Shown: in pieces, positions 53,245 to 62,827 of the stretch
Numbering within the stretch: the first letter of the stretch is position 1
Layout of the letters: every line of letters begins with the position of its first letter
Assembly (NCBI GenBank): GCA_036523395.1
Contig: DATDEH010000053.1
Span: forward strand, 1-64,000
DNA: 64,000 nt
Direction of reading: 5' to 3'
Source of the DNA: Candidatus Limnocylindria bacterium
GTDB taxonomy: Bacteria; Chloroflexota; Limnocylindria; P2-11E
Notes under the pieces: model-generated
The model's database searches: none
Told to the model about the DNA's origin: nothing
The model's input: only the letters and a program-made list of their open reading frames with translations
Position numbers and translations under genes: made by a program

Positions 53245-54609
53245 TTACGCGGCCGAGGCCGCCAGCGGGATCCGCGCGGTGACCCGCGTGCCGCGCAGCG
53301 GGCGCGACTCGATGCGGATCTCTCCCCCGTGCCGTTCGACGATCCAACGCGCGATCGGTAAGCCCAGGCCGCTGCCCGACGCGTCGATACGTCGTGCGGC
53401 GTCTCCACGGTAGAAGCGCTCGAAGACATGCGGCAGGTCAGACACCGCGATGCCGATCCCGTCGTCCTCGACCCGCAGCACCGCGTCCCGACCGTCGTCG
53501 GCGATCGAAACGTCCACCGTGCCGTTTGGGGTGTAGCGCAGCGCGTTGTCGAGAAGCACGAGCACGAGCTGCTTGAGGCGGTCGGGCTCGCCTCCCACCG
53601 TCACCGCGTCGATGGCACTCACTCGGAGCCGCCGGCCGGCGATACCTTGCAGGTCGGCGAACGTCTCCATCAGCACCTCGTCGAGCTGAACCCGACGCGG
53701 CACGAACGCTTCGAGAGCATCGGCGCGCGCGAGCACGAGGAGCTCGTCGACGAGCCGCGAGAGCCGCTCCGTCTCCCGGCGGATCTGCGCGATCGCGACG
53801 CGTTGGCCTGCGGGGTCGGCGTCGTTCGCGGCGAGGAGCTCGGCGTTCCCGCGGATCGTGGTGAGCGGCGTTCGCAGCTCGTGCGACACGTCCCCAACAA
53901 AACGCTGCTGTTGGCGGTGCGCGTCCTGGAGGCTCGCGAGCATCTCGTCGAACGTCAGCCCGAGCTGCACCAACTCGTCCTCGTCGCCGCCGTCCACACG
54001 CACGCGGCGTGAGAAGTCGCGCGATCGCGCGATCTCCCCGGCCGTTTCGGTCATGCGCGCGATCGGACGCAGCGCGCTTCCCGCGATGGCCGAGGCCCCC
54101 GCGGCACCGACTCCGACCGCGACGAGCGCGAGCAAGAACAGCGCGGTCCGGAGCTCGGCGTTCGAAGCGTCGACCGAGGCCAGGTTGACAGCGGTAACGA
54201 CCTTCACGGTGGTGCCGGCGACCGCAGCGACGAGCAGCCGCGCGCGTCCGCTCGGGGTCCAGGTCGTCAGCCAGCCTGGGCCCAGATCGCCGACCCGCAG
54301 ATCGGCGAGTGCGGGATCGTCGGTGCTTCCAGCGCTGTCGAGCAGCGTCGGACCGTCGAAGATCCACACGCCGTGCGGCTCGTCGATCATGCGATGCAGC
54401 TCGACCAGGCGCACGTCGGCCGCGGATCTACCTCCGGTCATCTCGAGCACGACGTCGGCGATCGCGCGATCGGTCATGTCCGTTATCGCCGCATCCACGT
54501 CGGCGTCATGCGACTCCGCGTGGAGGACGTAGGCGAGGGTGAGCGCCACCGCGAGCACGACGCCAAGAAGCACGCCGTAGAAGAGGGTGAGACGGCGACG
54601 CAGGGTCAC
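53245..54609 (-). CDS. Sensor histidine kinase
   Basis: Membrane histidine kinase of 454 residues; GTG 54609 overlaps the response-regulator stop. TM1 (about 8-30) and TM2 (about 155-178) flank a 120-residue extracytoplasmic domain. Then HAMP (about 178-235), HisKA with phospho-His243 (VSHELRTPLTTIRG), and HATPase_c (LLDNALRYTPNG, DDGIGI, GSGLGLPIARWIVERHGG). It is the kinase of an OmpR-type pair and should act on the regulator just upstream. Confidence 0.92.
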   Translation of the reverse strand: MTLRRRLTLFYGVLLGVVLAVALTLAYVLHAESHDADVDAAITDMTDRAIADVVLEMTGGRSAADVRLVELHRMIDEPHGVWIFDGPTLLDSAGSTDDPALADLRVGDLGPGWLTTWTPSGRARLLVAAVAGTTVKVVTAVNLASVDASNAELRTALFLLALVAVGVGAAGASAIAGSALRPIARMTETAGEIARSRDFSRRVRVDGGDEDELVQLGLTFDEMLASLQDAHRQQQRFVGDVSHELRTPLTTIRGNAELLAANDADPAGQRVAIAQIRRETERLSRLVDELLVLARADALEAFVPRRVQLDEVLMETFADLQGIAGRRLRVSAIDAVTVGGEPDRLKQLVLVLLDNALRYTPNGTVDVSIADDGRDAVLRVEDDGIGIAVSDLPHVFERFYRGDAARRIDASGSGLGLPIARWIVERHGGEIRIESRPLRGTRVTARIPLAASAA

Positions 54610-55295
54610 GACCCGTCTCGGAGCGTGTACCCCGCGCCGCGCAGGGTGTGGATCAGCCGCGGCTCGCCGCCGGCCTCGAGCTTCTGCCGGAGGTATCCCA
54701 CGTAGACCTCGCACACGTTCTCGTTGCCCTCGAAGTCGTACCCCCACACCCGTCGTGTGAGATCGGCCTTGGGGATGACCTGTCCAGCTTCTCGCATGAG
54801 ATGGAGCAGGAGTCGATACTCGGTCGACGTCAGCGTGAAACGACGCTGGCCGCGGCTCGCATCGTGACTCCCGGTGTCGAGCTCGAGGTCCGCGACGCGA
54901 AGCACCTTCGGTGAGGGTTCTCGCCGTCGAAGCACGGCGCGAAGGTGCGCCGCGAGCACCTGAAGGCTGAAGGGCTTCACCAGATAGTCGTCCGCGCCAG
55001 CGTCGAGACCGACGATCTGATCGCTCGCCCCGTCCTTCGCGGTGAGGATGAGGATGCCGAGATCGGGACGTTCGCTGCGAACTCGTCGGCAGACCGCGAG
55101 GCCATCGGTCCCTGGCATGAGGACGTCGAGGACGACCGCATCGGGTTGCCACTCGCGTAGCGAGCGCAGGGCGGAATCGCCGTCGGGCGCGGTCCGCACT
55201 TCGTATCCCTCGCGTATCAGCGTTCGCGCGACGACGCTCGTGACACCCTCGTCGTCGTCCGCCACAAGTACGCGCTGCGCCCTGTCGGTGGACAT
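54606..55295 (-). CDS. OmpR-family response regulator
   Basis: Protein of 229 residues from ATG 55295. Receiver with acidic DDD, phospho-Asp57 (AVVLDVLMPG), Thr in LTAKDG and Lys in YLVKPF. The DNA-binding domain shows LTSTEYRLLLHLMREAGQVI, NENVCEVYVGYLRQKLEAGG and HTLRGAGYTLR. Its gene is divergent from the FeS/NrfD operon. In the 154-base gap four TCTCAG-like boxes lie at 11-bp spacing, the usual geometry for this family, so it likely controls both itself and that operon. Confidence 0.92.
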   Translation of the reverse strand: MSTDRAQRVLVADDDEGVTSVVARTLIREGYEVRTAPDGDSALRSLREWQPDAVVLDVLMPGTDGLAVCRRVRSERPDLGILILTAKDGASDQIVGLDAGADDYLVKPFSLQVLAAHLRAVLRRREPSPKVLRVADLELDTGSHDASRGQRRFTLTSTEYRLLLHLMREAGQVIPKADLTRRVWGYDFEGNENVCEVYVGYLRQKLEAGGEPRLIHTLRGAGYTLRDGS

Positions 55296-55371
55296 GGATG
55301 CAGTGTCAGGAGGGGCCTGACAGCCGGAATCTGCCGGTAGGACCACCTCGTTAGTGCCGAACGGGCCTTTT

Positions 55372-55449: not shown

Positions 55450-56208
55450 ATGGCGCTGGTGTCACGGAGGCAGCTCCTCGGGAGACTGGGAGGTATCGGA
55501 GCCGGAGCGCTCGCGGCTGGCTTCGTTCCCCTGGCGTTCGCCGAGGCCGACGCTGCCGAGACCGGCCCCCAGCGCCAGTGGGCGATGGTGATCGACCTCC
55601 GCAAGTGCGATGGGTGTAAGGCCTGCACCAAGGCCTGCCAGGAGACCCATCACCTTCCTGAGAGCTTCGAGTGGATCAAGGTCTTCGAGGTCCACGACAA
55701 GCAGGGCGGCTCCTTCTTCATGCCGCGCCCATGCTTCCAGTGCGAGAACGCGCCATGCCTGAAGGTCTGCCCCGTCGCCGCGACCTTCAAGACGAGGGAC
55801 GGGGTCGTCCTCGTGGACCAGGATCGCTGCATCGGGTGCCGCATGTGCATGGCGGCCTGCCCGTACGGCGCGCGCTACTTCAACTACGGCGACCCGCCCG
55901 TCGCGAGCAATCCCTTCCAGCACCCCACGCCTGAGTTTCCGGTGCCGCAGCAGAAGGGCACGGTCGGCAAGTGCATGTTCTGCGTGCACCGCAGCGCGAA
56001 TGGCGAGCTCCCCGCGTGCGTCGACGCGTGTGGCATGAAAGCGATCTGGATCGGCGACCTGGTGGAGGACATCGCGACGAACGGCGACGAGACGGTCCGC
56101 CTCTCGACCTTCATCAAGGAGAACGACGCCTTCCGCTACAAGGAAGAGCTCGGTACCGGTCCGCGCGTGTACTACATCGCCGGCCACGGCCAGCTCCTGG
56201 ACTACTAG
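55450..56208 (+). CDS. Tat-exported 4Fe-4S ferredoxin subunit (PsrB/DmsB/NrfC-like)
   Basis: Electron-transfer protein of 252 residues. The N-terminus is a twin-arginine signal (SRRQLLG, then a hydrophobic stretch to AFAEADA), so the folded protein goes to the outer face of the membrane. Four Cys clusters of the DmsB type follow: CDGCKACTKAC, CFQCENAPCLKVC, CIGCRMCMAAC and a CMFC...CVDAC set, enough for four [4Fe-4S] clusters. It has a direct NrfD partner downstream (one base apart). There is no catalytic molybdopterin subunit next to it. Confidence 0.9.
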   Translation: MALVSRRQLLGRLGGIGAGALAAGFVPLAFAEADAAETGPQRQWAMVIDLRKCDGCKACTKACQETHHLPESFEWIKVFEVHDKQGGSFFMPRPCFQCENAPCLKVCPVAATFKTRDGVVLVDQDRCIGCRMCMAACPYGARYFNYGDPPVASNPFQHPTPEFPVPQQKGTVGKCMFCVHRSANGELPACVDACGMKAIWIGDLVEDIATNGDETVRLSTFIKENDAFRYKEELGTGPRVYYIAGHGQLLDY

Positions 56209-57543
56209 ATGGACACCCGGACGCACGAGCGCTACGTGGCCCGCGCCATGTGGTCGATCGGCCGCGGCGACGCGAAGTTCTGGATCAGCGTCGTCGTCCT
56301 CTCAGCCCTGGTCGCGGCCGGCTTCTATGCCTACATCTACCAGGTCCAGCGTGGACTCTGGGTCACCGGACTAAATCAGAAGGTCTCGTGGGGCTTCTAC
56401 ATCATCAACTGCGTCTTCTTTATCGGGATCAGCTACGGCGGCGCGATGACGAGCGCGATCCTCCGACTCACCAACGCGAAATGGCGGGCGCCGCTGACGC
56501 GCATCGCCGAAGCGACGGCCGTCGCCGCCCTGCTCGTCGGCGCGATCTATCCGATCATCGATCTGGGCCGGCCCGACCGCTTCCTCTACACGATCCAGTA
56601 CGCGCAGGTCGGATCGCCGATCATCTGGGACCTCGTCGCGATCAGTACCTACATGATGGCGAGCCTCGTCTTCCTGTATCTGCCGCTCATCCCGGACCTC
56701 GCGACGACGCGCGACACGATGCGGCCGGGCCTGTTGCGCCGGATCTACGGCATCCTCGCGCTCGGGTGGCGCGGCGCCGTGGGTCAGGAGCGCTCGCTGC
56801 AGCGCGGCATCGCGGTCATGGCCGTCCTCATCATCCCGCTCGCGATCTCGGTGCACTCGGTGCTCGCATGGCTCTTCGCGGTGACCGCGCGCGGCGGCTG
56901 GCACAGCACGATCTTCGCTCCGCTCTTCGTCCTCGCCGCGATGCTCTCGGGTGTCGCCGCGGTGATCATCGTGGTCGCCGTCTTCCGCAAGGTGTATGGC
57001 CTGCAGGAGTTCATCACCGCGAAGCACTTCCGCTACCTCTCATACCTGCTCATCGCACTGGGCATGGGGTATCTGTACTTCATGGTCAGCGAGTACCTCA
57101 CGGAGGGATACCTCCTCGACGCCGCGACGACGCCGGTGCTCGAGGCGATCTTCGTCGGGACCTACGCACCAGCCTTCTGGGGTTTCACCTTCCTGGGTCT
57201 CATCTTCCCGCTCCTGCTCGCGGCGGTCCCCGGACGGTGGGCGATCGGGCGCGTGTGCGCGGCGTCGGGACTCGTGATCGCCGGCATGTGGCTGAAGCGC
57301 TTCCTCATCGTGGTCCCCGGCATGGCCGAGCCGGTCATGCCCTGGGACTGGGGCCGGTACGCACCGACATGGGTCGAGGTGACGATCACCATCGGGACCG
57401 CGGCGGCGATCCCGCTGATCCTGATCCTCTTCTTCCGCTTCTTCCCGGTCATGTCCGTCCACGAGATGGAGGAGGTCGAAGGCGCATCCGAGCCGCGCGC
57501 CGCGGCGCTGGTGCCCAGCTTCGCCTCGGGAGGCGACGAATGA
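56209..57543 (+). CDS. NrfD/PsrC-family membrane subunit
   Basis: Integral membrane protein of 444 residues with about ten spans, NrfD/PsrC/HybB fold. N-terminal WSIGRGDAKFWISVVVLS and QKVSWGFYIINCVFFIGISYGG are typical. In the family this subunit exchanges electrons with quinone and may pump protons. It follows the ferredoxin gene with no gap and overlaps the next gene (ATGA). Residues 430-444 form a short soluble tail. It lacks a heme-binding set of His residues as far as I can see. Confidence 0.9.
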   Translation: MDTRTHERYVARAMWSIGRGDAKFWISVVVLSALVAAGFYAYIYQVQRGLWVTGLNQKVSWGFYIINCVFFIGISYGGAMTSAILRLTNAKWRAPLTRIAEATAVAALLVGAIYPIIDLGRPDRFLYTIQYAQVGSPIIWDLVAISTYMMASLVFLYLPLIPDLATTRDTMRPGLLRRIYGILALGWRGAVGQERSLQRGIAVMAVLIIPLAISVHSVLAWLFAVTARGGWHSTIFAPLFVLAAMLSGVAAVIIVVAVFRKVYGLQEFITAKHFRYLSYLLIALGMGYLYFMVSEYLTEGYLLDAATTPVLEAIFVGTYAPAFWGFTFLGLIFPLLLAAVPGRWAIGRVCAASGLVIAGMWLKRFLIVVPGMAEPVMPWDWGRYAPTWVEVTITIGTAAAIPLILILFFRFFPVMSVHEMEEVEGASEPRAAALVPSFASGGDE

Positions 57544-58226
57544 GGCGCATCGTGATCGCGTTCGCGGCCGTGAGTATCGCGGCATTCGCACTGCTCGGAC
57601 CCGGACGCTCGCTCCTTCCCGCCGGGACGCGGCCCGTGAGCGCGCTGGCCGCGCCGGCGCCCGACGCTGCCGCGCCGGCGCATGCCGGACACGACACGGC
57701 GAGCGCACGCGCCGTGCGAGCGGCGATCGCGCCGCCGCCGGACGGCGCCCGTGTCGAAGTCAAGACGCGCGCAGCCGCCAAGGCGGAGCTCGGATACGTC
57801 ATCGAGACACGCGTCGTGAGCCCCGACGGCAAACCGGTCAACGATGCGATCGTCCGGTTCTACGACCTCGTCGACTTCTTCGGCCCGCGCGAGGAGCTCA
57901 TCGGGACCGCGCGCACCGACGGCCAGGGGAACGCCTCGCTCAGTTATCTGCCGGCGTCGACCGGGTCACACGACATCGCCGTCCGCTTCGCCGGGCAGGG
58001 ATCCCTGGTGCCGTCGGTGGGCACCGCGACGTTCGAGGCGACGCTGGCGGCGCCACCCTATCGCAGCGACGAGCCCGCTCTGCTCGGCTTCACGCGCCTC
58101 GTCCCCTACGCCGCCGGCGCGATCGTGCTGTCGGTCTGGGGCCTCATCGCGTTCGCACTATTCGGCACCGCGCGCGGCATCGCCGTACGCGCGGTCAAGA
58201 CAACCGCAAAGGAGGACACCGCATGA
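57540..58226 (+). CDS. Membrane-anchored Ig-like-fold protein
   Basis: Protein of 228 residues with an N-terminal signal-anchor (IVIAFAAVSIAAFALLG), an Ala/Pro-rich linker, then a beta-sandwich domain with GYVIETRVVSPDGKPVNDAIV and GQGNASLSYLPASTGSHDIAVRF, like carboxypeptidase-regulatory or big Ig folds. A C-terminal span (YAAGAIVLSVWGLIAFALFG) anchors it. Located fully within the redox operon by ATGA overlaps on both sides. It could hold the exported ferredoxin at the membrane; no known partner can be named. Confidence 0.7.
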   Translation: MRRIVIAFAAVSIAAFALLGPGRSLLPAGTRPVSALAAPAPDAAAPAHAGHDTASARAVRAAIAPPPDGARVEVKTRAAAKAELGYVIETRVVSPDGKPVNDAIVRFYDLVDFFGPREELIGTARTDGQGNASLSYLPASTGSHDIAVRFAGQGSLVPSVGTATFEATLAAPPYRSDEPALLGFTRLVPYAAGAIVLSVWGLIAFALFGTARGIAVRAVKTTAKEDTA

Positions 58227-58804
58227 CGTTCCGATCCCGCGCGCTCGCATCCACCGCGGCCATGACCTTCCTCGCCGGCGTACTTGCCTCGTGCGGAGCT
58301 GGCACTGGCGAAACGGGGACGTCCGCTACGACGGCACCGACGACCGCGCCGACCGTCGCGGCCACCACCAAGCCCCAGGTCGCCACGTTCCTCATCCTGC
58401 AAGGCGACACGGTCCGTAGCCCCGAAGGGCTCACCGATGAGGAAAAGACGTTCCTCTCCTGCACGCAGCAGAGTCGGTTCCCTCAGGGTTCGCGCATCGT
58501 GTGGCGCTACCGGGCGCTCGACCCGCTCTCGAACAAGGCCCTTGACGACAAGGCCATCAAGTCGTTCGACCTGATCACTCCAGACGGGAAGGCAACGGCA
58601 TTCAAGTACGGCGGGCACGGTGGCACCAAGGAGGCCCCCGCGGAATTCTTCTGGACCGCCGGCTTCAGCGTGCCGAAGGACTACCCGACCGGAGCGTTCA
58701 CCTACCAGATCAAGGCGACGAGCCTGGACGGCGCGATCGGTACCTGGAACCAGTTCTTGGTCCCTGCCGCCCAACTCCAGATCGTCCCTGCCGGAAAGAG
58801 GTAA
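58223..58804 (+). CDS. Lipoprotein of the redox operon
   Basis: Protein of 193 residues with a lipobox in GVLASCG and a Thr/Ala-rich linker. The rest is beta-rich (FLILQGDTVRSPEGLTDEE, RIVWRYRALDPLSNKALDD) with two Cys in or near SCTQQS. The pattern VWRYRALDP...GKATAFKYGG looks like an Ig/FN3-like domain. I do not recognise the family. It overlaps the preceding gene by ATGA and is 5 bases before the next one, so it belongs to the same transcript. Confidence 0.68.
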   Translation: MTFRSRALASTAAMTFLAGVLASCGAGTGETGTSATTAPTTAPTVAATTKPQVATFLILQGDTVRSPEGLTDEEKTFLSCTQQSRFPQGSRIVWRYRALDPLSNKALDDKAIKSFDLITPDGKATAFKYGGHGGTKEAPAEFFWTAGFSVPKDYPTGAFTYQIKATSLDGAIGTWNQFLVPAAQLQIVPAGKR

Positions 58805-58809
58805 CTGAA

Positions 58810-60303
58810 ATGAGGCGTGTCGCCGTCGCGTTCGCCCTCGCAGCCATGCTGTCCGCGTGCGGCAGCGCATCCAAGACGCCCGAGCCGAGCGCGAGCGTCG
58901 CCGCAACGCCCAAGCCCACCGCGTCCGTGGCGGCGGCCGCCTCAGCGCAACCGTCGATCCAACCACAGGAGATCGTTGGCAAGTTCTCGCTGGAACCGGC
59001 ACACGGCCCGTGGGATACGCCGGTGACCGCGACGGCGAGCGGTCTCAAGCCATCGACCAAGTACGACCTCGTCTGGACCACCGGGAAGGTCCAGTGGAAG
59101 CTCTCGGACGACCGGAGCAAGTTCCTCGGGCGCGACGCCCGGACCGTGCAGAACGCTCTCCAGAGCGTCACGACCGACGCGACCGGCGGCTTCAAGGCCA
59201 CCTTCGCCGTCCCGCAGGGATTCGGATACGCGCACGACGTGATGGTCGTCGACGCCGACAAAGTGATCCGCAACAAGAGCCTGTTCGATGTCGACATGGT
59301 CACGACGATCACGCCGACCAGCGGTCCCGTCGGGACACCGATCACCGTCGAGGTGAAGGGCATCGGCTATCAGTCGTACCAGAACAGCTTCCAGCTGGCG
59401 TATGACAACGCGTACACCGGCTGGGTATCGTCGATCACGACCGACGGCTACGCCAAGGTCGTGATCCCCGCCACCGGTTACGTGGGCACGCACATCATCA
59501 CGCTCGGCCATTCCGAGTTCGGCGCGCCCTACATGAACCCGAACCAGCAGCCCGTCGTCGCATCGCGGCCATTCCCGCACATTCCCTTCACGGTCACCGA
59601 TGGCGTCGCGGTGAAGCCCACGGCTGCCGAGGCGCAGGGCTTCGCTCAGATCGCGGCGAGGCCGGTGGCGCAGGGCATCTGGTCCGCTCCCTACGGAGCG
59701 GCTGTCGGCACGCCGGCGACGTTGAACGGCAAAGCGCTCGCCGCGAACAGCGAGATCGAGCTTCAATGGACGACGATGGTCGGCAACCGCTCCGTCACCG
59801 GATTCGAGGAGCGCACCAAGACGCTCACGAGAGTGAAGACGGATGCGGCCGGCTCGTTCAATTGGGCATTCCCGATCCCCGATGACCTCGGCGGTATCCA
59901 CACGGTCACCGCAAAGCTCGGTGACGCGGTCGTCGCGAAGACGAGCGTGTACATCCTCGCGAGCGCCCTGCCCCTCTCCGTTGACAAGGGCCCGTCGGGC
60001 ACGAAGACGACACTGCACCTGAAGGGTGTCGGCTGGACGGAGACCGAGCAGATCTACCACGTCGTGTACGACAACGCCTTCACCGGATACGCGTGTGCCT
60101 TCCAGAGCGCGGGCGACCTCACGATCTTCCTGACCGTGTCCGGGGCGCCGGGCTGGCACTACGTCGACATGTATCCCGGCATCTACCAGGGCAGCGAAAC
60201 GCGGCCGGCCAACTACAAGATGCCGCAGCTCACCGCGCTGTCGGACCATCCCGGCGAACCACTGCCGATCTTCCGCTTCGCGTTCCTGATCACATCTCCG
60301 TAG
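58810..60303 (+). CDS. Large lipoprotein with repeated Ig/IPT-like domains
   Basis: Protein of 497 residues with lipobox in AAMLSACGS and a Pro/Thr/Ala linker. At least three beta-sandwich repeats follow: about 60-160 (GKFSLEPAHGPWDTPVTATASGL), 160-265 (TSGPVGTPITVEVKGIGYQ) and 370-497 (DKGPSGTKTTLHLKGVGW), with the shared pattern GPxGTxxTxxxxGxGW. Near-identical AYDNAYTGWVSS and VYDNAFTGYACA segments show internal duplication. It is the last gene of the operon; a terminator follows. The likely role is a surface scaffold or receptor near the redox complex, unproven. Confidence 0.7.
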   Translation: MRRVAVAFALAAMLSACGSASKTPEPSASVAATPKPTASVAAAASAQPSIQPQEIVGKFSLEPAHGPWDTPVTATASGLKPSTKYDLVWTTGKVQWKLSDDRSKFLGRDARTVQNALQSVTTDATGGFKATFAVPQGFGYAHDVMVVDADKVIRNKSLFDVDMVTTITPTSGPVGTPITVEVKGIGYQSYQNSFQLAYDNAYTGWVSSITTDGYAKVVIPATGYVGTHIITLGHSEFGAPYMNPNQQPVVASRPFPHIPFTVTDGVAVKPTAAEAQGFAQIAARPVAQGIWSAPYGAAVGTPATLNGKALAANSEIELQWTTMVGNRSVTGFEERTKTLTRVKTDAAGSFNWAFPIPDDLGGIHTVTAKLGDAVVAKTSVYILASALPLSVDKGPSGTKTTLHLKGVGWTETEQIYHVVYDNAFTGYACAFQSAGDLTIFLTVSGAPGWHYVDMYPGIYQGSETRPANYKMPQLTALSDHPGEPLPIFRFAFLITSP

Positions 60304-60323
60304 ACACACCCCTCGTGCCTGAC

Positions 60324-60359
60324 ACGCGCCGCTCGCGGCGGAAGCAGCGAGCGGCGCGT
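60324..60359 (+). terminator. Terminator hairpin after the redox operon
   Basis: Perfect 13-base inverted repeat ACGCGCCGCTCGC/GCGAGCGGCGCGT with a 10-base loop, 20 bases after the last lipoprotein stop. A very stable GC hairpin without a T-tract. Confidence 0.7.
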
Positions 60360-60448
60360 CCGGGCATCCGACGAGATCGATCCGCGGAACTCATACTGAC
60401 GCCGACGAACTTGAGCAAGTCGAACGCGCACAGCTCCGACGCGCCACG

Positions 60449-61359: not shown

Positions 61360-61536
61360 CTATGCCGCGAAGGCCCGATGCCGGCGGACCGCCTTCCCTT
61401 GCCGGGCTCGGAGCTCTGCCCGCCAGGGGCTTGACGTCGCGGCGTCATAGCCTCGCTCGTACGCGCTCAGCGCGAGGAAGGCGATGACGATCGTGCCGAG
61501 CGCGACGCCCACGATCAGGCCAACGACGAACGTCAT
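61360..61536 (-). CDS. Single-span microprotein, 58 residues
   Basis: Last gene of the PspC/LiaF-like operon. ATG 61536 overlaps the stop of the upstream gene (ATGA). One strong membrane span (FVVGLIVGVALGTIVIAFLAL) is followed by a basic cytosolic tail (YERGYDAATSSPWRAELRAR). It is easily missed because of its length. The coupling to the operon and a clear span support it being real; no family is known to me. Confidence 0.65.
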   Translation of the reverse strand: MTFVVGLIVGVALGTIVIAFLALSAYERGYDAATSSPWRAELRARQGKAVRRHRAFAA

Positions 61537-62447
61537 TCCGTCACTCCCTGGTGGATCGTGATCGAAGACACGCCGGACGAGATCGCGATGGTCAATCGGT
61601 TCGTCGCCGAGCTATAGCCGTTCGACTCCTCAGGACCCGAGATGCTGTTCAGGGCACCGGTCACGCGGACGCGGTACTCGACGCCTGCGGGGATGCGCAG
61701 GTCGACCGACGAGGCGCCGGTCGAGACGGTGACGGGAACGTTGCCATTCGCCTTGGGCAGCGCGATCTCGAGATTCGAGGCGCCATTGTTGATGGTCGCC
61801 TCTGTCAGCATCACGTTCGATAGGTCGAGATCGAAGTCGCCGGCTCCGAGGTTGAGCGTGAGGCCCACGGGCATGTCGGACGGCACGGTGACGTCCCATG
61901 CTCGGGCGATCCCACGAAGGGGACTGTTCTGATCCGTCGACTTCACTTCGACGATGGCCGACCCGCTGCTACGGACGTTCCACTGCAGGTCGATGTCCTC
62001 GCGGGTCGACTTGACCATGACGAGGTCCGGCATGACGGCGGCGGACGGGCCCGCCTTCACGGTGAGGTCGCCGGCCCCGTAGCCGAGCGTGAGCGAGAGC
62101 GACGACGCGCCGGTACGAAGCACGCTCTCCTGCGAGGTGAACGTGCCGGTGTTGATGACGTTCGCACCCGGTAGATTCGGGGTCGCCGCTAGATAGAACA
62201 GGGCCGCGCCGATGATCGCGATCTCGACGATCGCCGCGACGATCACCGAGCGTGGCCGTAGAAGCAGGTCGACGCCGAGGATCACGAGGAGGACCGGCCA
62301 GAGCTGGGCGACGCCCATCCATGAGACGCGATCCAGGTATCCCGCGTTGGCGAGCAGGAACACGACACCGAGCGCGATCAGGACGAGCGGGAAAGCCAGA
62401 GAGGGGGTGCGTCGCGGGGACTCGAACGTCATCGCCGGGCTCGTCAT
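61533..62447 (-). CDS. LiaF/DUF5668-like membrane envelope-stress protein
   Basis: Protein of 304 residues from ATG 62447, with AGGAGGG upstream; ATG overlaps the pspC stop. Four short spans at the N-terminus (about 15-110) contain the LiaI/DUF5668-type repeat FPLVLIALGVVFLLANAGYL and QLWPVLLVILGVDLLL. The C-terminal half (120-304) is a beta-helix-like DUF4097/LiaF-type domain with repeats such as LTLNLGAGDFDLDLSNV and INNGASNLEIALPKANG. Related to LiaF, a cell-wall stress sensor component. No LiaRS kinase is adjacent. Confidence 0.8.
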   Translation of the reverse strand: MTSPAMTFESPRRTPSLAFPLVLIALGVVFLLANAGYLDRVSWMGVAQLWPVLLVILGVDLLLRPRSVIVAAIVEIAIIGAALFYLAATPNLPGANVINTGTFTSQESVLRTGASSLSLTLGYGAGDLTVKAGPSAAVMPDLVMVKSTREDIDLQWNVRSSGSAIVEVKSTDQNSPLRGIARAWDVTVPSDMPVGLTLNLGAGDFDLDLSNVMLTEATINNGASNLEIALPKANGNVPVTVSTGASSVDLRIPAGVEYRVRVTGALNSISGPEESNGYSSATNRLTIAISSGVSSITIHQGVTE

Positions 62448-62827
62448 GGCCGTACCCTCCTGAGCAGAAGTGCGACACCCGCCGCGACCAGGACCAGCGG
62501 CCAGGCGAAGCGCCAGTTGATGAACGTGAACGCGCCGAGGTTCGCGAGCAGCCACAGGGCACCGATCGCGATGAGGACCGTGGCCAGCACCTCGTGTCCC
62601 CGCTCACCGAGCGCGACCGCCGGGGAGCCCTCGCCGACCGGGACGGCGATCCAGAGCACGATGTACAGAAGGACCGATGCGCCGCCGGCCAGTGCGAACA
62701 CGACGAAGGCCAGGCGGACGAGTGCCGGGTCGATGTTGAAGTAGTGCGCGAGCCCGCCGCAGACACCCGCGATCGCTTTGTCCGTGGCGCTGCGATACAG
62801 CCGTGGCGTGGTTCTGATGTTCTCCAT
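62444..62827 (-). CDS. PspC domain protein with extra membrane spans
   Basis: Protein of 127 residues. The PspC domain (1-70) reads RLYRSATDKAIAGVCGGLAHYFNIDPALVRLAFV, a typical signature for PspC, followed by one span. Two more spans of the LiaI/DUF5668 type follow (about 85-120). PspC works in phage-shock/envelope-stress responses. It overlaps the LiaF-like gene and is the third gene of the operon starting at 63917. Confidence 0.9.
   Translation of the reverse strand: MENIRTTPRLYRSATDKAIAGVCGGLAHYFNIDPALVRLAFVVFALAGGASVLLYIVLWIAVPVGEGSPAVALGERGHEVLATVLIAIGALWLLANLGAFTFINWRFAWPLVLVAAGVALLLRRVRP

Follow-up and report, generated by a model that had tools for sequence, protein, structure and literature searches.

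A five-gene FeS/NrfD module of a Limnocylindria bacterium as a candidate quinol:electron-carrier oxidoreductase without a molybdopterin subunit

A four-cluster ferredoxin paired with an NrfD-type membrane subunit is typical of iron-sulfur molybdoenzymes, which raises the question of what such a pair does at a locus where it is encoded with an Ig-domain protein and two lipoproteins and lacks a catalytic subunit. The locus lies in a stretch of 64,000 nucleotides from a Candidatus Limnocylindria metagenome-assembled genome (MAG), hereafter the window. Five tightly packed genes on the + strand occupy positions 55450–60303: a Tat-exported ferredoxin-like subunit of the NrfC/PsrB/DsrO type (FeS; 55450–56208, 252 aa), an NrfD-like integral membrane quinone subunit (NrfD; 56209–57543, 444 aa), an Ig-domain protein with an N-terminal hydrophobic segment and a C-terminal transmembrane (TM) helix (Ig3; 57540–58226, 228 aa), and two lipoproteins, lipo4 (58223–58804, 193 aa) and lipo5 (58810–60303, 497 aa). 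The NrfD start is the base right after the FeS stop, ATGA overlaps join NrfD to Ig3 and Ig3 to lipo4, and 5 nt separate lipo4 from lipo5, in agreement with the tight coupling described in an earlier sequence-only reading. A 751 aa open reading frame on the + strand at 55971–58226, in the Ig3 frame, is a spurious read-through into Ig3.

The terminator proposed in that reading was recovered in part: a strong GC-rich hairpin follows lipo5 at about 60315–60367 on the + strand (RNA fold, −49.2 kcal/mol for 60300–60400, z = −4.2) and possibly marks the operon end, but it lacks a T-tract and was not called by the intrinsic-terminator scan. Divergently from the module, on the − strand, lie an OmpR-type response regulator (54606–55346; PF00072 and PF00486) and, downstream of it, a histidine kinase (53245 onward; HATPase/HisKA/HAMP). 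The response regulator is a possible candidate for regulation of the module; one is found within six genes at 17 of 26 loci of the same subclade vs. 5 of 26 loci of the alternative complex III (ACIII) type. PspC/LiaF-like membrane-stress genes are also present near the module (61533–62827).

Analysis of the ferredoxin agreed with the predicted Tat export and approximately four [4Fe-4S] clusters: the signal motif is SRRQLL, and the 16 cysteines fall into four groups and are all invariant across nine homologues. The protein matched PF13247 (E = 5e-18), passed the NCBIfam DsrO model (211.7 bits vs. a cut-off of 200) and had ActB, ArrB (6cz7) and PsrB (2vpw) among its PDB matches. Its partner is a member of PF03916 (E = 2e-38), so that the window operon encodes both a four-cluster extracytoplasmic ferredoxin and an NrfD/PsrC membrane subunit. 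The best NCBIfam match of NrfD was DsrP, with a score of 123 vs. a cut-off of 350, and its nearest solved relative was ActC of ACIII (6f0k_C; profile match, E = 7e-89). Compared with the quinone-site residues of ActC (PMC8076601), the site is partly conserved. The positions of ActC Ser164, Asp169, Arg119, Glu122, Tyr176, Asp191, His247, Glu326 and Arg395 are invariant in 11 module NrfDs, with Ser136 and Asp141 of the window protein corresponding to Ser164 and Asp169. The position of His139 is occupied by Asp in most module NrfDs (Asp118 in the window protein), and Asp253 is not kept (Leu222 in the window protein).

A search with lipo5 recovered the family in 10 of 177 genomes of the class, representing 8 of 46 genera, with no match in four other genomes of the same genus; the distribution is therefore patchy, with MAG incompleteness as a caveat. 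All complete neighbourhoods of the class have the order FeS–NrfD–Ig3–lipo4–lipo5, although Ig3 is divergent in two of them (L030 and L031). Across the phylum, 17 of 400 genomes gave strong lipo5 matches (E below 1e-100), most of which carry the same five-gene operon (exceptions without NrfD: L148, L157 and L159), and the other matches were weak and generic-looking. Because the whole set is kept in the same order in relatives, a chance arrangement can be ruled out. Failure of the downstream genes to stay with NrfD had been named as an outcome that would speak against a module, and the opposite was found. CYCXC-family proteins are encoded shortly downstream of the module in L022 (7502–7960, below the NCBIfam cut-off) and L023 (12514–12852).

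A tree of NrfD homologues drawn from the genome collection was read together with their gene neighbours. The Ig-associated NrfDs formed their own clade (61 rows, support 100), apart from ACIII-type rows and spanning at least seven phyla (Chloroflexota, Actinomycetota, Deinococcota, Bacteroidota, Gemmatimonadota, Verrucomicrobiota, Acidobacteriota, Bacillota). The ACIII-type rows fell mostly into one group, and at many of them a pentahaem gene is accompanied by one of ~760 aa; how reliably a single row can be placed is limited by the quick tree method and by one very long branch, that of Rhodothermus marinus ActC. Among the loci examined, pentahaem genes occurred only at ACIII-type loci. Among 58 assessable clade members, an FeS gene was detected directly upstream of NrfD in 44, a count in which our own ORF-calling script may have missed starts and some FeS genes. 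No molybdopterin-type gene of >550 aa was found within six same-strand genes of the 61 clade NrfDs, where two of the large genes were checked by Pfam and the others by eye from their N-termini; a catalytic subunit is thus not a usual neighbour in relatives, whereas the opposite outcome would have counted against the sequence-only reading. PF00384 was confirmed at the ACIII-type controls L090 and L123. Descriptions of the Ig family, the lipoprotein families or the gene set were not found in a literature search of openly available papers, which does not prove their absence. We regard the module as a catalyst-free FeS/NrfD system whose combination of subunits is new, and the group as a new clade whose probable function we read from its architecture.

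The Ig protein associated with this clade matched Ig-like Pfam models only below cut-off in the window (Big_3_5, E = 7e-5, 23.8 of 35.5 bits), and the Ig3 profile aligned with that of the Bacteroidota Ig proteins at 94% probability. In two Chloroflexota (L026 and L027) an Ig domain is fused to the C-terminus of NrfD. Long NrfDs of about 610–750 aa in Gemmatimonadota, Verrucomicrobiota and some Bacteroidota carry a TM tail like that of the Bacteroidota Ig proteins, and from their sequences we read them as independent fusions with putative Ig tails. Since the two proteins are repeatedly fused, they probably bind each other, and Ig3 is probably bound to NrfD in the window organism. Some Ig proteins carry a C-terminal domain resembling planctomycete cytochrome c without a CxxCH haem motif (L079, 11268–12386; L080, 5164–6291; L104, 11557–12387; PSCyt1 in L104), with GGPH in its place in L080 and L104.

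At the position of the Ig protein, electron carriers are exchangeable among relatives. A monohaem cytochrome c gene lies between Ig3 and lipo4 in L030 and after or within the Ig protein in three Bacteroidota (L131, L135, L145); dihaem cytochromes c (L156, L077_19) and a hexahaem protein (L074) occur at the Ig position; and in L077 and L149–L153 the Ig protein has an N-terminal cupredoxin-like domain with a CxxxCxxH motif (FKCDLDCEIH-type), below the Pfam cut-off. Overall, a c-type haem gene is found near 24 of the 61 clade members. In genome G414, CoxB (over cut-off), COX1 and a COX3-like gene come directly after the operon, and a search for cytochrome b (PF00033) found none, an absence that in this draft genome could be a gap. 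This continuation into oxidase genes where cytochrome b was not found is the strongest argument that electrons pass from quinol to a carrier; oxygen-reductase clusters often follow ACIII clusters as well (PMC5928083). The window operon itself has no carrier gene and no haem-motif gene beside it, and its carrier is therefore probably a freely diffusing cupredoxin or cytochrome. At two Verrucomicrobiota loci (L098, 12068–14839; L108, 3599–6669), genes for a heptahaem cytochrome and for a protein of 677–740 aa come after an NrfD-Ig fusion, and the second of these proteins has a sub-threshold MtrB/PioB match in L108; this cluster is a possible extracellular electron-transfer conduit.

The lipoproteins are an add-on centred on Chloroflexota rather than part of the core, since pairs occur without NrfD on the stretch (in the three exceptions above) and several pairs occur per locus in L150 and L152. 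Many clade members lack them altogether. The sequence-only reading had proposed an extracytoplasmic partner held by the lipoproteins; this distribution does not bear it out, since the carriers of relatives adjoin or are fused to the Ig protein. Both proteins have a lipobox and were without a family in Pfam, NCBIfam and PHROGs and without a solved-structure match by sequence. The AlphaFold2 models give one beta-sandwich domain for lipo4 (pLDDT 82.6) and a chain of Ig/macroglobulin-like beta-sandwich domains for lipo5 (pLDDT 80.8). Fold matches were generic beta-sandwiches only, with nothing under E = 0.001 for lipo4 and multi-domain Ig/MG folds at low TM-scores for lipo5; enzymes or known redox domains were therefore rejected for either protein. 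Each has a single conserved cysteine outside the lipobox, found in 29 of 30 lipo4 sequences (Cys80; the exception is a truncated ORF; His132 of lipo4 is conserved as well) and in 28 of 28 lipo5 sequences (Cys429).

From the directly computed gene content, order, conservation, fusions, missing subunits and partly conserved quinone site, we consider it probable that the module is a minimal oxidoreductase linking quinol to an extracytoplasmic electron carrier, with no need for a molybdopterin subunit or a multihaem ActA. The link from quinone to an extracytoplasmic partner suggested earlier fits this reading. NrfD would bind quinol near the outer membrane face and pass electrons to the nearest of the four [4Fe-4S] clusters in the exported ferredoxin, which in turn would directly reduce a cytochrome c or cupredoxin that serves as small carrier at the NrfD-bound Ig protein. 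In the window lineage the carrier is neither fused nor linked, and a cupredoxin or c-type cytochrome encoded in the genome, soluble or lipid-anchored, would probably fill this role. The lipoproteins would form an accessory pair, probably a docking or scaffold arm, whose single cysteines may pair in a disulfide between the subunits or bind a metal. Electron direction and any coupling to proton transfer are likewise what we infer from this architecture. Points against the quinol-oxidoreductase reading are the replacements of ActC His139 and Asp253, the missing window carrier, a cytochrome b complex in the same genome and the lipoprotein pairs that occur apart from NrfD.

The MAG (95% complete) was searched family by family. 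One cytochrome b-type match with Rieske-like and cytochrome neighbours was found, so that the module is not the only quinol oxidation route of this genome, and a role as the sole complex III of the window organism is weakened. The search also gave one COX1, 13 cupredoxin matches and five cytochrome c matches (PF13442, only on contigs C122 and C72). Only two PF00384 proteins were present, and the expected lack of a molybdopterin-type subunit or cytochrome nearby held, as all PF00384 and PF13442 matches lie on other contigs. An ordinary iron-sulfur molybdoenzyme whose catalytic subunit is encoded elsewhere would explain the FeS/NrfD pair, and a gene could be missing from an incomplete MAG. However, of the two PF00384 proteins, the formate-dehydrogenase-like one on C5 has its own FeS and NrfD genes (the sole other NrfD of the genome) and the one on C8 is of the FdhF/YdeP type, while the 61 clade neighbourhoods are without such a gene and the control loci score PF00384. 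An unlinked molybdenum partner was rejected on this gene content, and the split arrangement appears highly improbable. In the C5 cluster (L036, G000:C5:10001-30000), an in-frame TGA in the large subunit possibly encodes selenocysteine.

Electrons could also run the other way, from a periplasmic or surface donor (e.g., a metal or sulfur compound acting through a cytochrome or cupredoxin) through the ferredoxin to quinone. NrfD/FeS pairs function in both directions, Qrc reducing menaquinone from a periplasmic cytochrome (PMC13059093), and the heptahaem cytochromes behind the Verrucomicrobiota fusions, with the sub-threshold MtrB/PioB match in L108, would suit such a donor. The continuation of the G414 operon into cytochrome c oxidase genes, with cytochrome b not detected, and the predominance of lone small carriers, which are characteristic of a chain's oxidising end, make this direction unlikely. 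The lone cysteines of lipo4 and lipo5, near-universal as they are, might instead serve a quinone-linked thiol/disulfide relay that oxidises or reduces extracytoplasmic thiols, or a cysteine-bound metal on the lipoproteins; this is very unlikely, given the independent occurrence of lipoproteins and NrfD described above and a window pair without a CxxC motif.

Among the nearest known systems is ACIII, which we take to consist of ActABCDE(F) (structures 6F0K from R. marinus and 6BTM from F. johnsoniae); the module resembles its core, stripped of the large subunits. Shared with it are an ActC-like NrfD with the positions of Ser164, Asp169 and Arg395 kept, a four-cluster ferredoxin resembling the ActB2 domain, cytochrome c partners in relatives and the downstream oxidase genes of G414. 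Unlike ACIII, the module lacks the pentahaem ActA, the Mo-like ActB1, ActD and ActF, its Tat ferredoxin is a separate gene, an Ig protein and lipoproteins are present instead, and its NrfD belongs to a separate clade. Neither PF00384 protein of the genome is an ActB1 counterpart, none occurs near relatives, and the second NrfD, belonging to the C5 cluster, is no ActF. DsrMKJOP identity was rejected: the ferredoxin passes the DsrO model and DsrP tops the NCBIfam matches of NrfD, but DsrP falls far below cut-off, DsrC (PF04358) was not found in the genome, and no DsrJ-type cytochrome or other Dsr gene was seen nearby. QrcABCD likewise has an NrfD and four-cluster FeS pair; the module lacks its QrcB-like Mo-type subunit and multihaem QrcA, and the QrcC and QrcD models scored far below cut-off. 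The pair is also that of the complex iron-sulfur molybdoenzymes PsrABC, TtrABC and ArrAB, but the operon has no molybdopterin catalytic subunit, and the only unlinked one lacking its own anchor is the FdhF/YdeP-type protein.

More broadly, we tentatively suggest that the Ig-NrfD clade may be a distinct and widespread class of quinol:carrier oxidoreductases without a molybdopterin-type or multihaem subunit, with plug-in carriers at the Ig protein, standing in for complex III in some bacteria (as in G414) and extended in Chloroflexota by a cysteine-linked lipoprotein pair. An FeS/NrfD pair acting as a stand-alone electron-transfer unit bears on the assembly history of ACIII and of the iron-sulfur molybdoenzymes. 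Annotation can mislead here, as the ferredoxin would be named DsrO, and cultured isolates of Bacteroidota or Gemmatimonadota, should any carry the module, would allow the proposal to be tested. Such a class would amount to an additional path from quinol to small carriers in numerous environmental bacteria with gapped or misnamed respiratory annotations.
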